DNA from: an uncultured Phascolarctobacterium sp.
Lineage (GTDB): Bacteria; Bacillota; Negativicutes; Acidaminococcales; Acidaminococcaceae
Direction: 5' to 3'
NCBI GenBank assembly: GCA_947630795.1
Contig: CANRJC010000001.1
Span: 1 to 64,000 of the forward strand
DNA length: 64,000 nucleotides
Below are positions 22,524 to 30,455 of the stretch, piece after piece. Numbering within the stretch: position 1 is the stretch's first letter; each line of letters begins with the position of its first letter. Under the pieces are notes generated by a model. That model was not told the DNA's origin, ran no database searches, and saw only the letters and a list, made by a program, of their open reading frames with translations. The translations under genes were made by a program, and so were the position numbers.

Positions 22524-22552
22524 TTGACAGAAAGAAACTTAATTGATATACT
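22524..22552 (+). promoter_or_regulatory. promoter of the T-box operon
   Basis: TTGACA (22524-22529), 17-base spacer, TATACT (22547-22552). Confidence 0.8.
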
Positions 22553-22569
22553 GACTATATATTTTCAGA

Positions 22570-22805
22570 AGAAACTGCGAAGATCGGGAAGAGGACAGCA
22601 GATGCTTTCAGAGAGGCGGCGCAAGGTGCGAGCCGCTAAGCAAAAACCGTCCGGCTCGCCCGGGAGCTCCGCTTCCGAAAACTTTCTCGTCGACGAGGAA
22701 GAGTTTAAGAAGCGGCGTCGGCCCCGTTAAGGCCCAGAGTATAACAATAGGGTGGTACCGCGTCGACACGCCCCTATCGGCAAAGCCGGTAGGGGCTTTT
22801 TCTAT
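22570..22805 (+). promoter_or_regulatory. T-box riboswitch with terminator/antiterminator
   Basis: The T-box sequence AATAGGGTGGTACCGCG is at 22746-22762. The terminator is a perfect 12-bp stem (22770-22781 with 22785-22796, one G-T) and TTTTT. ATAGGG (22747-22752) can instead pair with CCCTAT (22772-22777), which gives the exclusive antiterminator. Stem I is visible: CAGAGAG at 22610-22616, the distal hairpin GCGGC/GCCGC (22616-22635), and lower helices GGAC/GTCC and CGGG/CCCG leaving the loop GGCTCG at 22653-22658 as likely specifier loop. UGGU in the bulge predicts a tRNA with A73. CTC (Leu) fits best; GCT (Ala) is possible. Confidence 0.88.
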
Positions 22806-22826
22806 AGCCTCGGGAGGAAAACCTTT

Positions 22827-23702
22827 TTGAAAAAGATGGCGACGCTTTTGCGTCAACGTTTGCAGCAGCCGGAAATTTTGCTTTTGCCGGGAGTTTACGA
22901 CGCTCTTTCCGCCAAAGTGGCCCAAGAGGTGGGCTATGAAGCCTTGGTGATGGGCGGTTACGCCATCGCCGCTTCCCGTTTGGCCGCCCCCGATATCGGC
23001 TATTTGTCGAGGACGGAGATGGCCATGGCCGCCAAAACGATCACCGCCGCCGTGGACCTGCCCCTTTTGGTAGACGGCGACACCGGCTACGGCAATGCCC
23101 TCAGCGCCCGCCACACGCTGCGGGAACTGGAGGCAGTGGGGGCCGCCGCCGTGCTTTTCGAAGATCAGGTGTGGCCTAAACGCTGCGGCCACATGGCCGG
23201 CAAGCAAGTGGTGGAGGCAAAGGTCCATGCGGTGAAGCTGCGGGCCGCAGCCGATGCCAAGGGCGACCCCGACACTTTGCTGATCGCCCGCACCGACAGC
23301 AGGGCAGTCTTGGGACTTGATGCCGCCATCGAAAGAGGCAAGCTCTATTTGGACAGCGGCGCCGACGCTCTCTTCATCGAAGCGCCTCAAAACGAGTGGG
23401 AGTTGGAAAAGATAGGCAAGGCCTTCCCCGACACCGTCTTGATGGCCAACATGATCGAAGGAGGCCGCACGCCCATCCTCACGCCCAAAAAGCTGGAAGC
23501 TTTGGGCTTTAGCATCGTCACTTGGCCCTGCAGCCTCATCTATACGGTGACCAAGGCCCTGCGGGAAGTGCTGACGGCGCTGAAAGAAGAGGGAACCACC
23601 GACGGCGTGAAGGAGCGCATGCTGAGTTTTGCCGCATTCAACGCTTTTATCGGGCTCGACAAATACGAAGAGCTCGACAAAAAATATAAGGAAACTCCGT
23701 GA
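22827..23702 (+). CDS. isocitrate lyase/PEP mutase superfamily protein
   Basis: The superfamily makes or breaks C-C or P-C bonds next to a carboxylate (methylisocitrate lyase, dimethylmalate lyase, oxaloacetate decarboxylase, PEP mutase). The 291-residue protein has YDALSAKVAQEVGYEALVMGGYAIAAS, the metal motif DGDTGYGN, and the KRCGH active-site loop. Substrate is not determinable. I start at TTG 22827, nine bases after GGGAGG; ATG 22836 is the alternative. It directly follows the T-box terminator and precedes a TRAP transporter, so it probably acts on the imported acid. Confidence 0.85.
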   Translation: MKKMATLLRQRLQQPEILLLPGVYDALSAKVAQEVGYEALVMGGYAIAASRLAAPDIGYLSRTEMAMAAKTITAAVDLPLLVDGDTGYGNALSARHTLRELEAVGAAAVLFEDQVWPKRCGHMAGKQVVEAKVHAVKLRAAADAKGDPDTLLIARTDSRAVLGLDAAIERGKLYLDSGADALFIEAPQNEWELEKIGKAFPDTVLMANMIEGGRTPILTPKKLEALGFSIVTWPCSLIYTVTKALREVLTALKEEGTTDGVKERMLSFAAFNAFIGLDKYEELDKKYKETP

Positions 23703-23742
23703 TTAAGAGGGCGACGCTGCCCGGAGAGAAAGGAAGTTGCGT

Positions 23743-24762
23743 ATGAAATTCTCCAAAAAAATGATGGCTGCCGCTACGGTAGCAACTCTTTTGGCTTTGG
23801 CCGGCTGCGGCGGCGGTGAAAAGAAGGCCGCTCCCGCTCAGGATCAAAAAGTTACTTTGAAGATGGCCATCCACCTGCCGGCCAGTCATCCCCTGCCCAA
23901 GGCTATGGAGCAGTTGAAGACCAAGGTGGCCGCCAAGAGCAACAACACCGTAGAGATCCAGATCTATCCTGCCGGCCAGCTCTTCACCGACAAAAACATG
24001 AACGATGCCCTGATGACCGGCGGCATCGATCTGTGCCTCAATACCGTGGGCCGCTGGGCCAGCGTGGTGCCGGCCATGGACGTATTCGACGTGCCCTTCC
24101 TCTTCCCCAGCTATGAAAAAGTCGATGCAGCCATCGACGGCGGCTTGGGCGAAAAACTGGGCGCCGAGTTGTTGAAGAAGGGCGTTCGTCCCCTCATCTG
24201 GGCCGACTACGGCTTCGTGGAATTCGGCAACAATACGAAAGAGATCAAGAGCCCGGCCGACTTCAAAGGCTTGAAGATCAGAGGCTACTCCAAGTACAGT
24301 GCCGAGACCATCAAAGCTTTGGGCGCTTCCAGCGTTACTCTGGGCGCCGCCGAAGTTTACATGGCCATCCAGAGAGGCACCATCGACGGGCAGACCAGCG
24401 GCGCTCCCGCTATGCGCGATCGGAAAATGTACGAAGTGCATAAGTATTTGACCGTCACCAATCACGCCACCCCCGAGTTCTTGGTAGCCATGAACGACAA
24501 GAGCTACAACAAACTGAGCGACAATCAGAAGAAGGCTTTGAACGAGGCAGCCGCCGAAGTCAATAAGAGCATCCGCGACAACGCCAAGGCAGAAGACCTG
24601 AAAGCTCTGGAAGATCTGAAGGCCAAAGGCATGATCATTTATCAGGTGCCCGACAACGAATTGAAGGCTTGGCAGGACGCCACCAAACCGGTGTGGGATC
24701 TCTTCATCAAAGAGAACGGCAAAGTAGGTCAGGAACTGATCGACATCTGCACCAAGAAATAA
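23743..24762 (+). CDS. TRAP transporter substrate-binding protein, DctP family
   Basis: Periplasmic lipoprotein that captures an organic acid for the DctQM permease. The 339-residue product has a signal peptide with lipobox LAGC (Cys about residue 22) and DctP signatures: AIHLPASHPLPKAMEQLKTK, the central FKGLKIRGYSK with its conserved Arg for the substrate carboxylate, and AAEVYMAIQRGTIDGQ. GAAAGGAAG precedes ATG 23743. It belongs to the T-box operon with the lyase and dctQM. Substrate unknown. Confidence 0.92.
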   Translation: MKFSKKMMAAATVATLLALAGCGGGEKKAAPAQDQKVTLKMAIHLPASHPLPKAMEQLKTKVAAKSNNTVEIQIYPAGQLFTDKNMNDALMTGGIDLCLNTVGRWASVVPAMDVFDVPFLFPSYEKVDAAIDGGLGEKLGAELLKKGVRPLIWADYGFVEFGNNTKEIKSPADFKGLKIRGYSKYSAETIKALGASSVTLGAAEVYMAIQRGTIDGQTSGAPAMRDRKMYEVHKYLTVTNHATPEFLVAMNDKSYNKLSDNQKKALNEAAAEVNKSIRDNAKAEDLKALEDLKAKGMIIYQVPDNELKAWQDATKPVWDLFIKENGKVGQELIDICTKK

Positions 24763-24845
24763 AAGAAAAATGTTTAGAGGCGGGAGAGGCTGCTCCGGCG
24801 GCCTTTCCCCTTCTTTGACATTTCGCAGAGCGAGGTCTTGAAACG

Positions 24846-25370
24846 GTGGAAAAAATTTTATCCACATATGACAAAGTATTAAAGGGCATAACTTTGGTGA
24901 CGGGGGTCATCGCCGGACTGCTGGTGCTGTTCTGCGCTTTCTCCATCGTCTACGAAGTAGTGTGCCGCAGCATCCTCAACACGCCGACGGAGTGGGTGAC
25001 GGAGATCTCTACCTATTGCATCGTCATCGCCGGTTTTTTGGGCATGGGTGTCACCTATGCGGGGCGAAAACACATCCACGTGGACATTTTCATCAGCCGC
25101 TTGACAGAGCGCACCCGCACTTGGATCGAGTTGGTGACTTCGGCGCTGGGTGCTTTTTATTGTTTCCTCTTCACCGTGGAATCGTGGAAGATGGTGATGA
25201 TGAGCATCGAATACAACAACTGTGCTCCCACCACCTTGAGCACTCCTCTTTGGATACCTCAGTCTTCCATGCCTGTGGGTCTTTTCATTTTATTGTTGCA
25301 TCTTATCCGCACTTTTTTGGGAGATATAGTGAAGCTGAAAAAAGGCGACGCCGGGGAGGTGACGGTATAA
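24846..25370 (+). CDS. TRAP transporter small permease, DctQ family
   Basis: Four-helix membrane partner of the large TRAP permease. The 174-residue protein starts with GTG at 24846 and has about four hydrophobic helices; the second and third carry EWVTEISTYCIVIAGFLGMG and the RKHIHVDIF motif typical of DctQ. The large subunit begins directly after the stop codon (TAAATG), so the two are translationally coupled. Confidence 0.9.
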   Translation: MEKILSTYDKVLKGITLVTGVIAGLLVLFCAFSIVYEVVCRSILNTPTEWVTEISTYCIVIAGFLGMGVTYAGRKHIHVDIFISRLTERTRTWIELVTSALGAFYCFLFTVESWKMVMMSIEYNNCAPTTLSTPLWIPQSSMPVGLFILLLHLIRTFLGDIVKLKKGDAGEVTV

Positions 25371-26648
25371 ATGTTACTGATCTTTACCGTTCTTCTCTTG
25401 TTGCTTTTGATATCCGGCCTGCCGGTGGCCTTTTCTTTGGGCCTGGGCGGCGTTGCCGGCATGATCCTCTTCATGGGCGGGGAAGGGGCGCTGGCCCAAT
25501 TGCCCATCATCGGCTATAAATCTCTGGACGACTTCGTCCTCACCGCCGTGCCCATGTATATCTTGATGAGCCAGATCCTTTTGACCGGCAAAGTGGGCAA
25601 CGATCTTTTCGAACTGGCCAATAAATGGCTGCGTCATCTGCCGGGAGGTTTGGGCATCGCCACCATCATGGCCTGCGCCGTGTTCGCCGCCATCACCGGT
25701 TCCTCTGTGGCCTGCGCCGTCACCATCGGTGCCATCGCCATCCCGGAGATGCTCTCCCGCGGCTACGACAGGACCACAGTGTTGGGGGCCGTGGCGGCGG
25801 GAGGGACCTTGGGCATTTTGATACCGCCTTCCATCCCCATGATCCTCTACGGCGCCATCACCGATGAATCTATCGGCAAGCTCTTCATGTCCGGCGTAGT
25901 GCCCGGCATCATGCTCACTCTCATGTTCACCGCCATCGTGGTGTACCGCAGCCGCGATCTTATAAGAGAGAAGGCCGCCACCTGGGACGAGAGGCTGGGA
26001 GCTTTGAGAAAATCTTTCTGGGGCCTTTTGCTGCCTGTCATCGTGGTGGGCGGCATCTACATCGGCATCTTCACTCCCACGGAGGCTGCGGGCATCGGCA
26101 CGGTGTACAGCATCTTCATCACCTTCTTCGTATACCGCACCATCACTTTGAAAGATATGCCGGAGATCCTCTTCGACACCATCAAGACCACCTGCATGAT
26201 CTTCGCCATCATGATCGGCGCCAGTCTCTTCGGCTTCGTGCTCACCATTTTGGATGCGCCGCAAGCTCTCACTACTTACGTTGTGAGCATGGAGACCAGC
26301 CGTTGGATCGTCTTCGTGGCCATCAACATCCTGCTGCTCTTTTTGGGCTGCATTTTGGAGTCGGTGTCCATCATCTTCATCACTCTGCCCATCCTCTTCC
26401 CGCTGGTGACCAGCTTAGGCTTCGATCCCATTTGGTTCAACGTAGTGATGCTGGTCAATTTGGAACTGGCCCTCATCACGCCGCCGGTGGGCATGAACCT
26501 CTTCGTGCTGCAGGGCATCAGCCCCGACAGCAAGATGACTCAGATCGTGCAGGGCGTCATCCCCTTCGGCCTGGCCATGGCGGCCGAGATCGTGCTGCTG
26601 TGTTTCTTCCCCCAATTGGCCACTTGGCTGCCCAGTGTGGTGAAGTAG
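25371..26648 (+). CDS. TRAP transporter large permease, DctM family
   Basis: Sodium-driven, 12-helix inner-membrane permease that moves the acid delivered by DctP. The 425-residue protein has DctM landmarks: SGLPVAFSLGLGGVAG, AVPMYILMSQIL, ITGSSVACAVTIGAIAIPEM, AAGGTLGILIPPSIPMILYG (the re-entrant loop) and LITPPVGMNLFVLQGI. The ATG abuts the dctQ stop. A strong terminator closes the operon. Confidence 0.94.
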   Translation: MLLIFTVLLLLLLISGLPVAFSLGLGGVAGMILFMGGEGALAQLPIIGYKSLDDFVLTAVPMYILMSQILLTGKVGNDLFELANKWLRHLPGGLGIATIMACAVFAAITGSSVACAVTIGAIAIPEMLSRGYDRTTVLGAVAAGGTLGILIPPSIPMILYGAITDESIGKLFMSGVVPGIMLTLMFTAIVVYRSRDLIREKAATWDERLGALRKSFWGLLLPVIVVGGIYIGIFTPTEAAGIGTVYSIFITFFVYRTITLKDMPEILFDTIKTTCMIFAIMIGASLFGFVLTILDAPQALTTYVVSMETSRWIVFVAINILLLFLGCILESVSIIFITLPILFPLVTSLGFDPIWFNVVMLVNLELALITPPVGMNLFVLQGISPDSKMTQIVQGVIPFGLAMAAEIVLLCFFPQLATWLPSVVK

Positions 26649-26686
26649 TCTTAAGTCTGCCTTAAAAAGAACAGAGTAAAAAATCG

Positions 26687-26725
26687 GCTCCCCGGCCGAA
26701 ACGGCCGGGGAGCTCGTCTGTTTTT
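26687..26725 (+). terminator. strong intrinsic terminator after dctM
   Basis: A perfect 12-bp GC-rich stem (26687-26698 with 26702-26713) and an AAA loop; the T run (TTTTT) comes after an 8-base gap. Confidence 0.8.
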
Positions 26726-26796: not shown

Positions 26797-27540
26797 ATGA
26801 AAAAGAAAAAATTTGCGACGATCTCGGTGTCGATCCTCGTTGCGTCGCTCTTTTCTGCCGCTGCTTGGGCCTTCGAGCCGGGGGAGCGGACCATCAAACT
26901 TTTGGGCGACACTTTAAACAGCGATAAACATCCGGTGCACTTGGTGCTGGAGCAGACCATAGAGCTGAAAGAGCTTTTGACGGCAGAAGCTTACGAAAAA
27001 TTGCCTGCGGAAGACAGAATGCGCCGCAGCCGCACCGAATACAACGAAAAGGACGGCATCTTCGCCGAGCGCAACACCACTGTCAACGGTGCGGGCAAGA
27101 TCGTAAGAGATGTGGCGGCCTTCACTAAAGACGGCCGCTGGTACAGCATCGATCATCTGCACCGAACTTACGACGAATTGCCGGCGGTGGAGGGGATGAG
27201 CCTCGCCTTCGCCGAAACTTTGGTGAGCTGGTTCGGTCAACGGCCCACCATGGGCCACGATGCCGCCTTGGGCTTGGACTACGACTGCCTGCACAAAAAC
27301 GAAAAAGGCGAGCTCTGTTTTTATTACGACAAAGACGGCAGCAGGTGGCAGGGGATGCGAGAGAAATCCATGCCCTACGTGCAGGTGACGGTGCTGGATC
27401 AAAACGTGGACGAAAACGCTTTTCGACTGCCGCCTTCTTCCTATGAAAGAGTGCCCAACGAGACCATGCGGGCTGTGGCCCAGCGCCTTTTGCTGCGGCA
27501 GCAGCTGCGGGCCGCTCGAGATCAGGGCGGCGAAGAATAG
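26797..27540 (+). CDS. secreted hypothetical protein (247 aa)
   Basis: I do not recognise a family. A signal peptide (about residues 6-25, ending SAAAWA) points to the periplasm or surface. The mature part is soluble, acidic and without Cys pairs or repeats; it has a mid-domain with NTTVNGAGKIVRDVAAFTKDGRWYSIDHLHRTY and a Gln/Arg-rich tail (AQRLLLRQQLRAARDQ). Good AAGGAGG site 6 bases before the ATG. It has its own promoter just after the dctM terminator and is followed by a separate PepSY gene, so it is likely a single-gene unit. Confidence 0.75.
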   Translation: MKKKKFATISVSILVASLFSAAAWAFEPGERTIKLLGDTLNSDKHPVHLVLEQTIELKELLTAEAYEKLPAEDRMRRSRTEYNEKDGIFAERNTTVNGAGKIVRDVAAFTKDGRWYSIDHLHRTYDELPAVEGMSLAFAETLVSWFGQRPTMGHDAALGLDYDCLHKNEKGELCFYYDKDGSRWQGMREKSMPYVQVTVLDQNVDENAFRLPPSSYERVPNETMRAVAQRLLLRQQLRAARDQGGEE

Positions 27541-28495: not shown

Positions 28496-28690
28496 GCCGC
28501 CCACACATTTTGCAACGATCGCCACTCTCACATAAACGACCGTCTTGAATGATCACCGGCTTCCTGTCGCTCGCAGGTCAAGCATCAGCTTGCATAAAAG
28601 GCCCTGCTGGCTTCAGGCTGCACCTGTTACAGCGGCGGGACCGCACCGGAATCACACCGGTCGAGGCTCTTTACGCGAAATATTGACTTG
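28496..28690 (-). ncRNA. cobalamin riboswitch with no gene downstream
   Basis: On the minus strand the leader contains CCGGTGTGATTCCGGTGCGG followed by TCCCGCCGCTGTAACAG (28661-28625), the core of the cobalamin element, and AAGCCAGCAGGGCC (28611-28598) at the place of the B12 box (a variant). It has its own promoter and, about 110 bases on, a terminator. No coding gene follows on the minus strand; the PepSY gene lies convergent. A 71-codon frame across the terminator (28316-28531) has no ribosome site. It may act as a B12-sensing small RNA. Confidence 0.75.
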
Positions 28691-29250: not shown

Positions 29251-29318
29251 TTGCGAAAAAAAGAACAGGCAGCCGCGTGGGACTGCCTGTAAAAATTTTC
29301 CGTTCATCAAAAAATTAG
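28989..29318 (+). CDS. doubtful small basic ORF (109 aa)
   Basis: The only support is a good ribosome site (GAAAGGAG, 8 bases before ATG 28989). The predicted protein is rich in Arg, Lys and Phe (FFKEFIGKSSRFLLRFFQKE) and runs through repeat-like sequence and the terminator of the CDF gene on the other strand. No family is recognised. More likely a chance frame in the repeat. Confidence 0.2.
   Translation: MLRWQSFENKAEDPQRLFFVRERQKVSAYLARIFPKRSRGELRIFFKEFIGKSSRFLLRFFQKEPAVARHLRLKRGLLEKLAAFSSLFAKKRTGSRVGLPVKIFRSSKN
29255..29290 (-). terminator. terminator of the CDF exporter gene
   Basis: On the minus strand ACAGGCAG / CTGCCTGT pair across a 10-base loop and are followed by TCTTTTTTT. Confidence 0.8.
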
Positions 29319-30265
29319 GCTTTTTTCTTTGCCGCCCGGGGCAAAAGTTCCGCCGGCAGGCTCATGTGGCATTCGTGAGAGCGTTCGCTGAGGGGGTTGA
29401 CGTGGACCATGCAGTGCTTCACCAAGGGGAAGTTGGCTTCGATGGCGGCGTGCACCGTTTCGGCGATGTTATGAGCGGCGTAGAGGGGGAGGCTGTCTTT
29501 GACGCTGATCTCCACATCCACATAGACGCGGTTGCCGAAGATGCGGCTGGCGAGGCTGTCCAGATGCTCCACTCCCGGCACTTTGCGCACCAAGTCTTCC
29601 AAGGCGGCGTCGGTGGCGGCATCTACACTGCGGTCCACCATCTTGTTCACGGCGTCGGCAAAAACTTCGTAAGCGGCGTAGAGGATCATGAAACAAATGA
29701 CGAGACCGGCCAAGGGATCTAAAATAGGATAGCCCAGCCGTGCGCCCAAGATGCCGATGAAGCTGCCAACGGAGGAGAGGGCATCGCTGCGATGATGCCA
29801 GGCTTCCGCCAAAAGAGCGCCGGAATTTATTTTTTTGGCGGCAGCTCGCGTGTACCAAAACATGGCTTCTTTTACCAAAACGGACGCCACCGCCGCCCAC
29901 AGGGCCAGCGCCCTGGGGACTTCCAGTTCCCCTGCTCCGCCGAAAATTTTTTGAGCGGCGGTGAAGCCGATGCCCAAGGCGACGAGGCCCAGGATGATGG
30001 CGAGGATGAGGGCGGTGATGCACTCCAGCCGTTCGTGGCCGTATTGATGCTCTTTGTCCGATGCTCGATGGGAAAGTTTGACGCCCACCATGACGATGAG
30101 GGAGCCGAAAACATCGGAGGCGGAGTGGATGCCGTCGCTGATCATGGCGGTGGAGTGGGCCATAAAACCGGCGGCCACCTTGCCTAAGGAGAGAAAAATG
30201 TTGCCGATGGCGCTGTTGACGGACACCACCATGGCCAAGTGTTCTTCTTGTCGGGCCGATAACAT
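29315..30265 (-). CDS. cation diffusion facilitator family metal exporter
   Basis: CDF proteins export divalent metals (Zn, Co, Ni, Fe, Mn, Cd) in exchange for protons. The 316-residue product has six membrane helices and the metal-site signatures ISDGIHSASDVFGS (helix 2), a His-rich YGHERLE loop and HHRSDALSSVGSF (helix 5), then a cytoplasmic domain with VEHLDSLASRIFGNRVYVDVEI. I start at 30265, nine bases after AAAGGAGAA; the frame is open upstream to 30352 through riboswitch sequence. The NiCo riboswitch in front indicates cobalt/nickel export. Confidence 0.92.
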   Translation of the reverse strand: MLSARQEEHLAMVVSVNSAIGNIFLSLGKVAAGFMAHSTAMISDGIHSASDVFGSLIVMVGVKLSHRASDKEHQYGHERLECITALILAIILGLVALGIGFTAAQKIFGGAGELEVPRALALWAAVASVLVKEAMFWYTRAAAKKINSGALLAEAWHHRSDALSSVGSFIGILGARLGYPILDPLAGLVICFMILYAAYEVFADAVNKMVDRSVDAATDAALEDLVRKVPGVEHLDSLASRIFGNRVYVDVEISVKDSLPLYAAHNIAETVHAAIEANFPLVKHCMVHVNPLSERSHECHMSLPAELLPRAAKKKA

Positions 30266-30323
30266 AGTAGCAGTTCTCCTTTGTTGCCGGGGCGCAGGTC
30301 CGGCGTAAAAATTTTCGGATACG

Positions 30324-30455
30324 AAAAAAGCGCCCGAGGGGCAGGTCGTCACTGTCCCGCAGACGTTTGCTTTCGTTCTGCTGCCCGAAGGGCCCGGCCG
30401 CTAGACCCGAAGGTCTACCGCCTGTTCAGTTGCGCTGCCTCGTGAAACGAGGCAG
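30324..30455 (-). promoter_or_regulatory. NiCo (czcD) riboswitch with terminator
   Basis: The minus-strand leader of the CDF gene contains CTGAACAGGCGG, a hairpin AGACC..GGTCT, CCGGGCCC..GGGCAGCAGAACG, and GCGGGACAG: the purine-rich AACAGG and GGGACAG junction words match the czcD/NiCo riboswitch, and the context (metal exporter) is the classical one. An expression-platform stem TGCCC/GGGCG with TTTTTT follows (30324-30345). Upstream is an extra hairpin CTGCCTCG/CGAGGCAG. Cobalt or nickel should prevent termination. Confidence 0.8.

Follow-up and report, generated by a model that had tools for sequence, protein, structure and literature searches.

An operon made up of a T-box leader, a lyase gene and the three genes of a tripartite ATP-independent periplasmic (TRAP) transporter (dctP, dctQ and dctM) lies on the forward strand of a 64,000-nucleotide stretch of DNA from an uncultured Phascolarctobacterium sp., a gut bacterium (contig CANRJC010000001.1 of assembly GCA_947630795.1), hereafter the window (Table 1). 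The present analysis concerns the amino acid to which this leader responds, the genomes that share the unit, and the compound that the transporter and lyase may handle.

A T-box leader precedes a lyase and a TRAP transporter

The T-box in front of the lyase and transporter genes is real and complete. The RF00230 covariance model matches the leader from end to end (model positions 1-219 of 219) with 80.5 bits and an E value of 5.5e-18. This score lies below the Rfam gathering score of 93, so a default scan missed the element; seven of the nine T-boxes of the same genome, including the leuC and ileS leaders, also score below 93. The leader terminator hairpin is strong (-24.7 kcal/mol, z -6.8, with no shuffled sequence equally good) and competes with the antiterminator pairing ATAGGG/CCCTAT for the same CCCCTAT. 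An initial annotation of this DNA had claimed a complete T-box with its promoter and a terminator opposed to that pairing, in front of an isocitrate lyase/phosphoenolpyruvate (PEP) mutase family gene and a DctPQM transporter, and each of these elements is borne out. The sub-threshold score would fit a T-box that arose by chance, is degenerate or is a functionless remnant, but we give this idea practically no credence, as it is opposed by the E value and by the retention of specifier, T-box sequence and terminator in 22 genomes across several families.

Table 1. Features of the operon, in window coordinates
Feature	Position	Strand	Basis
Sigma-70-type promoter, TTGACA-17-TATACT	22524..22552	+	11/12 consensus matches
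T-box leader, leucine-specific (stem I, stem II/III region, antiterminator)	22571..22778	+	RF00230
Specifier codon CTC (Leu), context GTCCGG-CTC-G-CCCGGGAG	22655..22657	+	TBDB rule; conservation; tRNA-Leu(GAG)
T-box sequence AATAGGGTGGTACCGCG	22746..22762	+	Sequence; UGGU is complementary to ACCA in a tRNA with A73
Intrinsic terminator versus antiterminator, shared CCCCTAT	22770..22802	+	Hairpin 22770-22796, then U-rich tail
Petal-death-protein-like lyase, isocitrate lyase/PEP mutase superfamily; proposed 2-isopropylmalate lyase	22827..23702	+	PF13714; 1zlp, 255 bits; KRCGH
dctP, TRAP substrate-binding protein; proposed isopropylmalate binder	23743..24762	+	PF03480; T-box-linked family in Negativicutes
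dctQ, TRAP small membrane subunit	24846..25370	+	PF04290
dctM, TRAP large membrane subunit	25371..26648	+	PF06808, TIGR00786
Operon-end terminator	26686..26714	+	13-bp GC-rich stem, T-rich tail

A plain free-energy fold of the whole leader, the route by which the initial annotation had meant to locate the specifier, proved uninformative for this purpose because it mispairs stem I, which is visible in the covariance model and in comparative alignments. The specifier was instead placed by the TBDB rule, which takes bases 2-4 counted from the 3' end of the specifier bulge (PMC7778990). Applied to the other leaders of the genome the rule gives codons that are all sensible (valS GUA, ileS AUC, ilvB AUC, trpE UGG, thrS ACC, leuC CUC and leuA CUG), and for the leader described here it gives CUC (Leu). 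This codon is invariant in the leaders of the 22 genomes that have the same operon, whereas, apart from one relative, the overlapping GCU is confined to this genus pair. The genome also encodes a tRNA-Leu(GAG) with A73 and an encoded CCA, which fits the UGGU of the T-box bulge and the A73 predicted from it. The leader is thus specific for leucine and not alanine: of the two codons first considered, CTC stands, and GCT, which is not conserved among orthologous leaders, is ruled out.

As an RNA the leader is typical of a known family, sharing stem I motifs, a CUC specifier, the UGGU bulge and the terminator/antiterminator switch with T-boxes such as the Bacillus subtilis ilv-leu leader. It differs from these precedents in the genes it controls, a lyase and a TRAP transporter. 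A survey of T-box-controlled transporters lists the classes ABC, APC, LIVCS, NSS, NHAC, DAACS and MFS, and TRAP is not among them (PMC2494555).

The lyase may start at the TTG that follows GGGAGG or at an ATG at 22836. Among solved proteins its best match is carnation petal death protein (1zlp), which it matches over the whole chain, and the next best scores 184 bits; it keeps the catalytic KRCGH and ANMIEGG segments that it shares with that protein. It falls below the NCBIfam equivalog cut-offs both for methylisocitrate lyase (PrpB, TIGR02317; 280.5 against 354.4 bits) and for PEP mutase (TIGR02320; 117 against 319.6 bits), and has the KRCGH motif of lyases. Both the nearest protein of solved structure and the conserved catalytic motifs point to a petal-death-type 2-alkylmalate lyase, for which we propose cleavage of 2-isopropylmalate. 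Another member of the superfamily is 2,3-dimethylmalate lyase (3fa3), and alkylmalates are the substrates of both known enzymes. Unlike these, the lyase described here is bacterial and belongs with a transporter to a unit controlled by leucine or valine T-boxes, and the substrate that we assign to it is a proposal.

All three TRAP components exceed their Pfam gathering scores. The transporter shares its three-component architecture with known DctPQM systems whose substrates are 2-acetolactate or 2-oxo acids that take part in amino-acid synthesis (PMC5812351), so that carriers of this type include amino-acid precursors among their substrates. Unlike usual DctP proteins, those of the T-box-linked family retain only Arg173 of the three carboxylate-binding residues (4P47 numbering), with Arg152 replaced by Val or Ile and Asn213 by Ser throughout. 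A 12-bp hairpin with a T-rich tail lies between dctP and dctQ (window 24782-24809), which may act as a partial terminator and so favour expression of dctP.

Lyase and transporter across genomes

The order T-box-lyase-DctPQM is kept in 22 genomes, although in one of these (L054) the contig stops after the lyase. Phascolarctobacterium, where the nearest relatives lie, is among these genomes with its kin; the others are Sporomusa ovata, a genus that is sister to Dialister, a Peptococcaceae metagenome-assembled genome (MAG) and further Negativicutes. In a Sporomusaceae MAG (L053/L129) a single operon runs T-box(CUC)-leuA-leuC-leuD-leuB-lyase-dctP-dctQ-dctM, which ties the lyase and transporter to the leucine pathway.

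A search with DctP found matches in 73 of 381 Negativicutes genomes, and these are concentrated in genomes with the lyase (37 of 39 lyase-positive against 36 of 342 lyase-negative genomes; Fisher p 1e-28, uncorrected for kinship). Twenty transporter loci with no adjacent lyase were read: a leucine T-box lies directly upstream in 10 (9 CUC, 1 CUG), a GUC T-box in 3, all from Dialister, and none in the others. The leucine T-box on DctPQM alone thus extends to ten genomes beyond the 22. Four Dialister genomes carry the lyase (50-52% identical to that of the window) far from the transporter and under a GUC (Val) T-box of its own, whose leader has two antiterminator/terminator modules in a row. Since transporter and lyase are far apart in Dialister and both read GUC, the two share one tRNA signal whether or not they are neighbours, and have changed together from leucine to valine.

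Leucine and valine pathways and a possible salvage route

Model searches found neither LeuA_dimer nor ilvC in any of six Dialister-family genomes; all six have leuB, and all six have a T-box(CUC)-leuC-leuD-leuB operon. In a single-contig genome of this family, tblastn over 2.03 of 2.41 Mb gave no significant match to two kinds of LeuA, to IlvB or to IlvC, and found leuC, leuD and leuB (70, 75 and 59% identity). The sister genus of Dialister (G331 and G332) lacks detectable leuA and ilvC, and has leuCDB together with the leucine T-box lyase-transporter operon. Because leuCDB is here under leucine control without LeuA, leucine synthesis in Dialister and its sister genus would need imported isopropylmalate, and the T-box-linked transporter is a natural candidate for this import in the Dialister family. 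The lack of IlvC similarly implies that Dialister does not make 2-ketoisovalerate de novo.

Taking together the observed RNA architecture, specifier codon, tRNA gene, gene order, conservation and pathway-gene content, we consider it somewhat probable that the unit is a salvage operon for leucine starvation. As in the T-box family at large, we infer that uncharged tRNA-Leu(GAG) pairs with CUC and UGGU and stabilises the antiterminator, so that transcription reads through. DctPQM would then take in 2-isopropylmalate released by other microbes, a ligand suggested by the comparative genomics, and LeuC, LeuD and LeuB would convert it to 2-ketoisocaproate and on to leucine. The lyase, acting in the cleavage direction as a 2-alkylmalate lyase, would split the same compound into 2-ketoisovalerate and acetate and thereby feed valine synthesis too. 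In Dialister, the lyase under the valine T-box would provide 2-ketoisovalerate through retro-Claisen cleavage of 2-isopropylmalate, a reaction of the kind that its relatives catalyse. We see about an even chance that isopropylmalate salvage by TRAP importer and lyase allows Dialister, without leuA and ilvC, to derive leucine as well as valine from a single scavenged intermediate, with a separate T-box on each branch. In Phascolarctobacterium, with pathway genes of its own, the operon would supplement synthesis by salvage. Another bacterial pair has been reported to cross-feed extracellular (2S)-isopropylmalate (PMC13155107). The initial annotation had imagined that an organic acid, possibly a precursor of an amino acid, is taken in and cleaved; that idea is upheld, with isopropylmalate now put forward as the precursor.

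Several points weigh against isopropylmalate salvage. Phascolarctobacterium carries leuA, leuC, leuB, ilvB and ilvC, so scavenging is inessential there; a lack of LeuA or LeuB in the window's own genome is ruled out, both having been found. Cleaving 2-isopropylmalate in the midst of leucine starvation looks wasteful. The loss of two of the three usual carboxylate-binding residues makes the ligand of DctP uncertain, and a branched amino acid is possible. The valine-linked lyase shares with that of the window just the 50-52% identity given above, and Dialister UBA7295 has a second lyase copy at the end of an operon whose T-box reads AUG (Met), a copy that the model leaves unexplained. The T-box is, finally, absent from several transporter loci (family f15) and from one lyase-transporter locus (L051/L130).

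The genomes with leuCDB and no leuA could also be explained if the lyase worked in the synthetic direction, condensing 2-ketoisovalerate with acetate to 2-isopropylmalate in place of LeuA, with the transporter importing 2-ketoisovalerate or another branched 2-oxo acid. The known TRAP systems for 2-oxo acids would suit this scheme, which also accounts for G331 and G332 and fits the leucine-controlled genomes. It does not fit the valine-controlled ones: the Dialister lyase is under a valine T-box, and draining 2-ketoisovalerate in a valine shortage would be senseless. The system is also kept in genomes with leuA, and condensation of free acetate without CoA should be unfavourable, judging from the energy of thioester hydrolysis. 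We regard this scheme as unlikely.

It is likewise rather doubtful that the transporter carries a branched-chain amino acid itself, leucine or valine, and that the lyase has a separate task. The transporters that stand alone behind leucine T-boxes and, in Dialister, behind valine T-boxes would be expected under this reading, as would the altered carboxylate site of DctP, and most T-box-controlled transporters take up amino acids. It leaves unexplained, however, why the lyase is in the same operon, why it tracks the transporter from leucine to valine and why leuCDB persists without leuA. Dialister moreover already has a LivH-like amino-acid importer behind a separate Ile-type T-box, and we know of no DctP-type TRAP transporter for leucine, which we also count against direct amino-acid uptake.

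A third scheme would have the lyase form 3-isopropylmalate from glyoxylate and isovalerate that the transporter brings in, and LeuB would then be the one further enzyme required on this shortcut to leucine. Such chemistry is typical of the superfamily, and leuB was found in every well-covered genome in which it was looked for, yet the route would yield no valine. We rate it as very improbable because leuC and leuD, for which it has no need, are kept in every Dialister-family genome examined.

If 2-isopropylmalate salvage is correct, a transporter family and a lyase gain a function that sequence alone could not name, TRAP transporters join the T-box regulon, and isopropylmalate is predicted to be a resource that gut and rumen bacteria share. 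We found no paper in the open-licence literature that joins T-box, TRAP transporter and leucine, and among the literature matches listed there was no bacterial isopropylmalate transporter or lyase. As far as that literature shows, control of a TRAP transporter and of an alkylmalate lyase by a T-box is new, and so is the suggested salvage pathway. A large auxotrophy survey of gut genomes has no variant with LeuBCD and without LeuA (PMC9026213), so Dialister would be classed there simply as auxotrophic for leucine, isoleucine and valine, though it may live on a cross-fed intermediate.

Related loci and other features of the window

The AUG T-box operon of Dialister sp. UBA7295 (L142 1450-5009) encodes a MetQ-like binding protein, an iron-sulfur protein and a 213-aa protein in addition to the second lyase copy. 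The lyase-DctPQM locus that has no T-box, in a Negativicutes MAG (L051 9581-10000), does have a promoter and a terminator together with what may be an 8-codon leader peptide (MELVGYIW), perhaps another attenuator.

Tandem double expression platforms, with one stem I and two antiterminator/terminator modules, recur in Dialister-family leaders, among them those that precede the lyase (Val) and leuCDB (Leu) (L133 at 7863 and 7949, L141 at 3055/3139, L143, L144, L183, L184, L255 and L268).

Distant lyase homologues adjoin LeuC/LeuD-like genes at six loci (L071, L110, L116, L117, L137 and L138), the two alternating several times in L138; these are probably modules of the dimethylmaleate hydratase/dimethylmalate lyase type. 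Lactobacillaceae loci (L069, L072, L074, L083 and others) have paired lyase-family genes, and in several of these loci an MFS transporter-like gene comes next.

Downstream of the operon, the window encodes a 247-aa protein (26797-27540) whose start resembles a signal sequence and which matches nothing in Pfam or NCBIfam. A partial cobalamin riboswitch match lies at 28604-28661 (-), covering only model positions 51-165 and barely exceeding the gathering score. A NiCo riboswitch (53 bits) at 30350-30438 (-) immediately precedes a cation-efflux-type gene at 29315-30352 (-).

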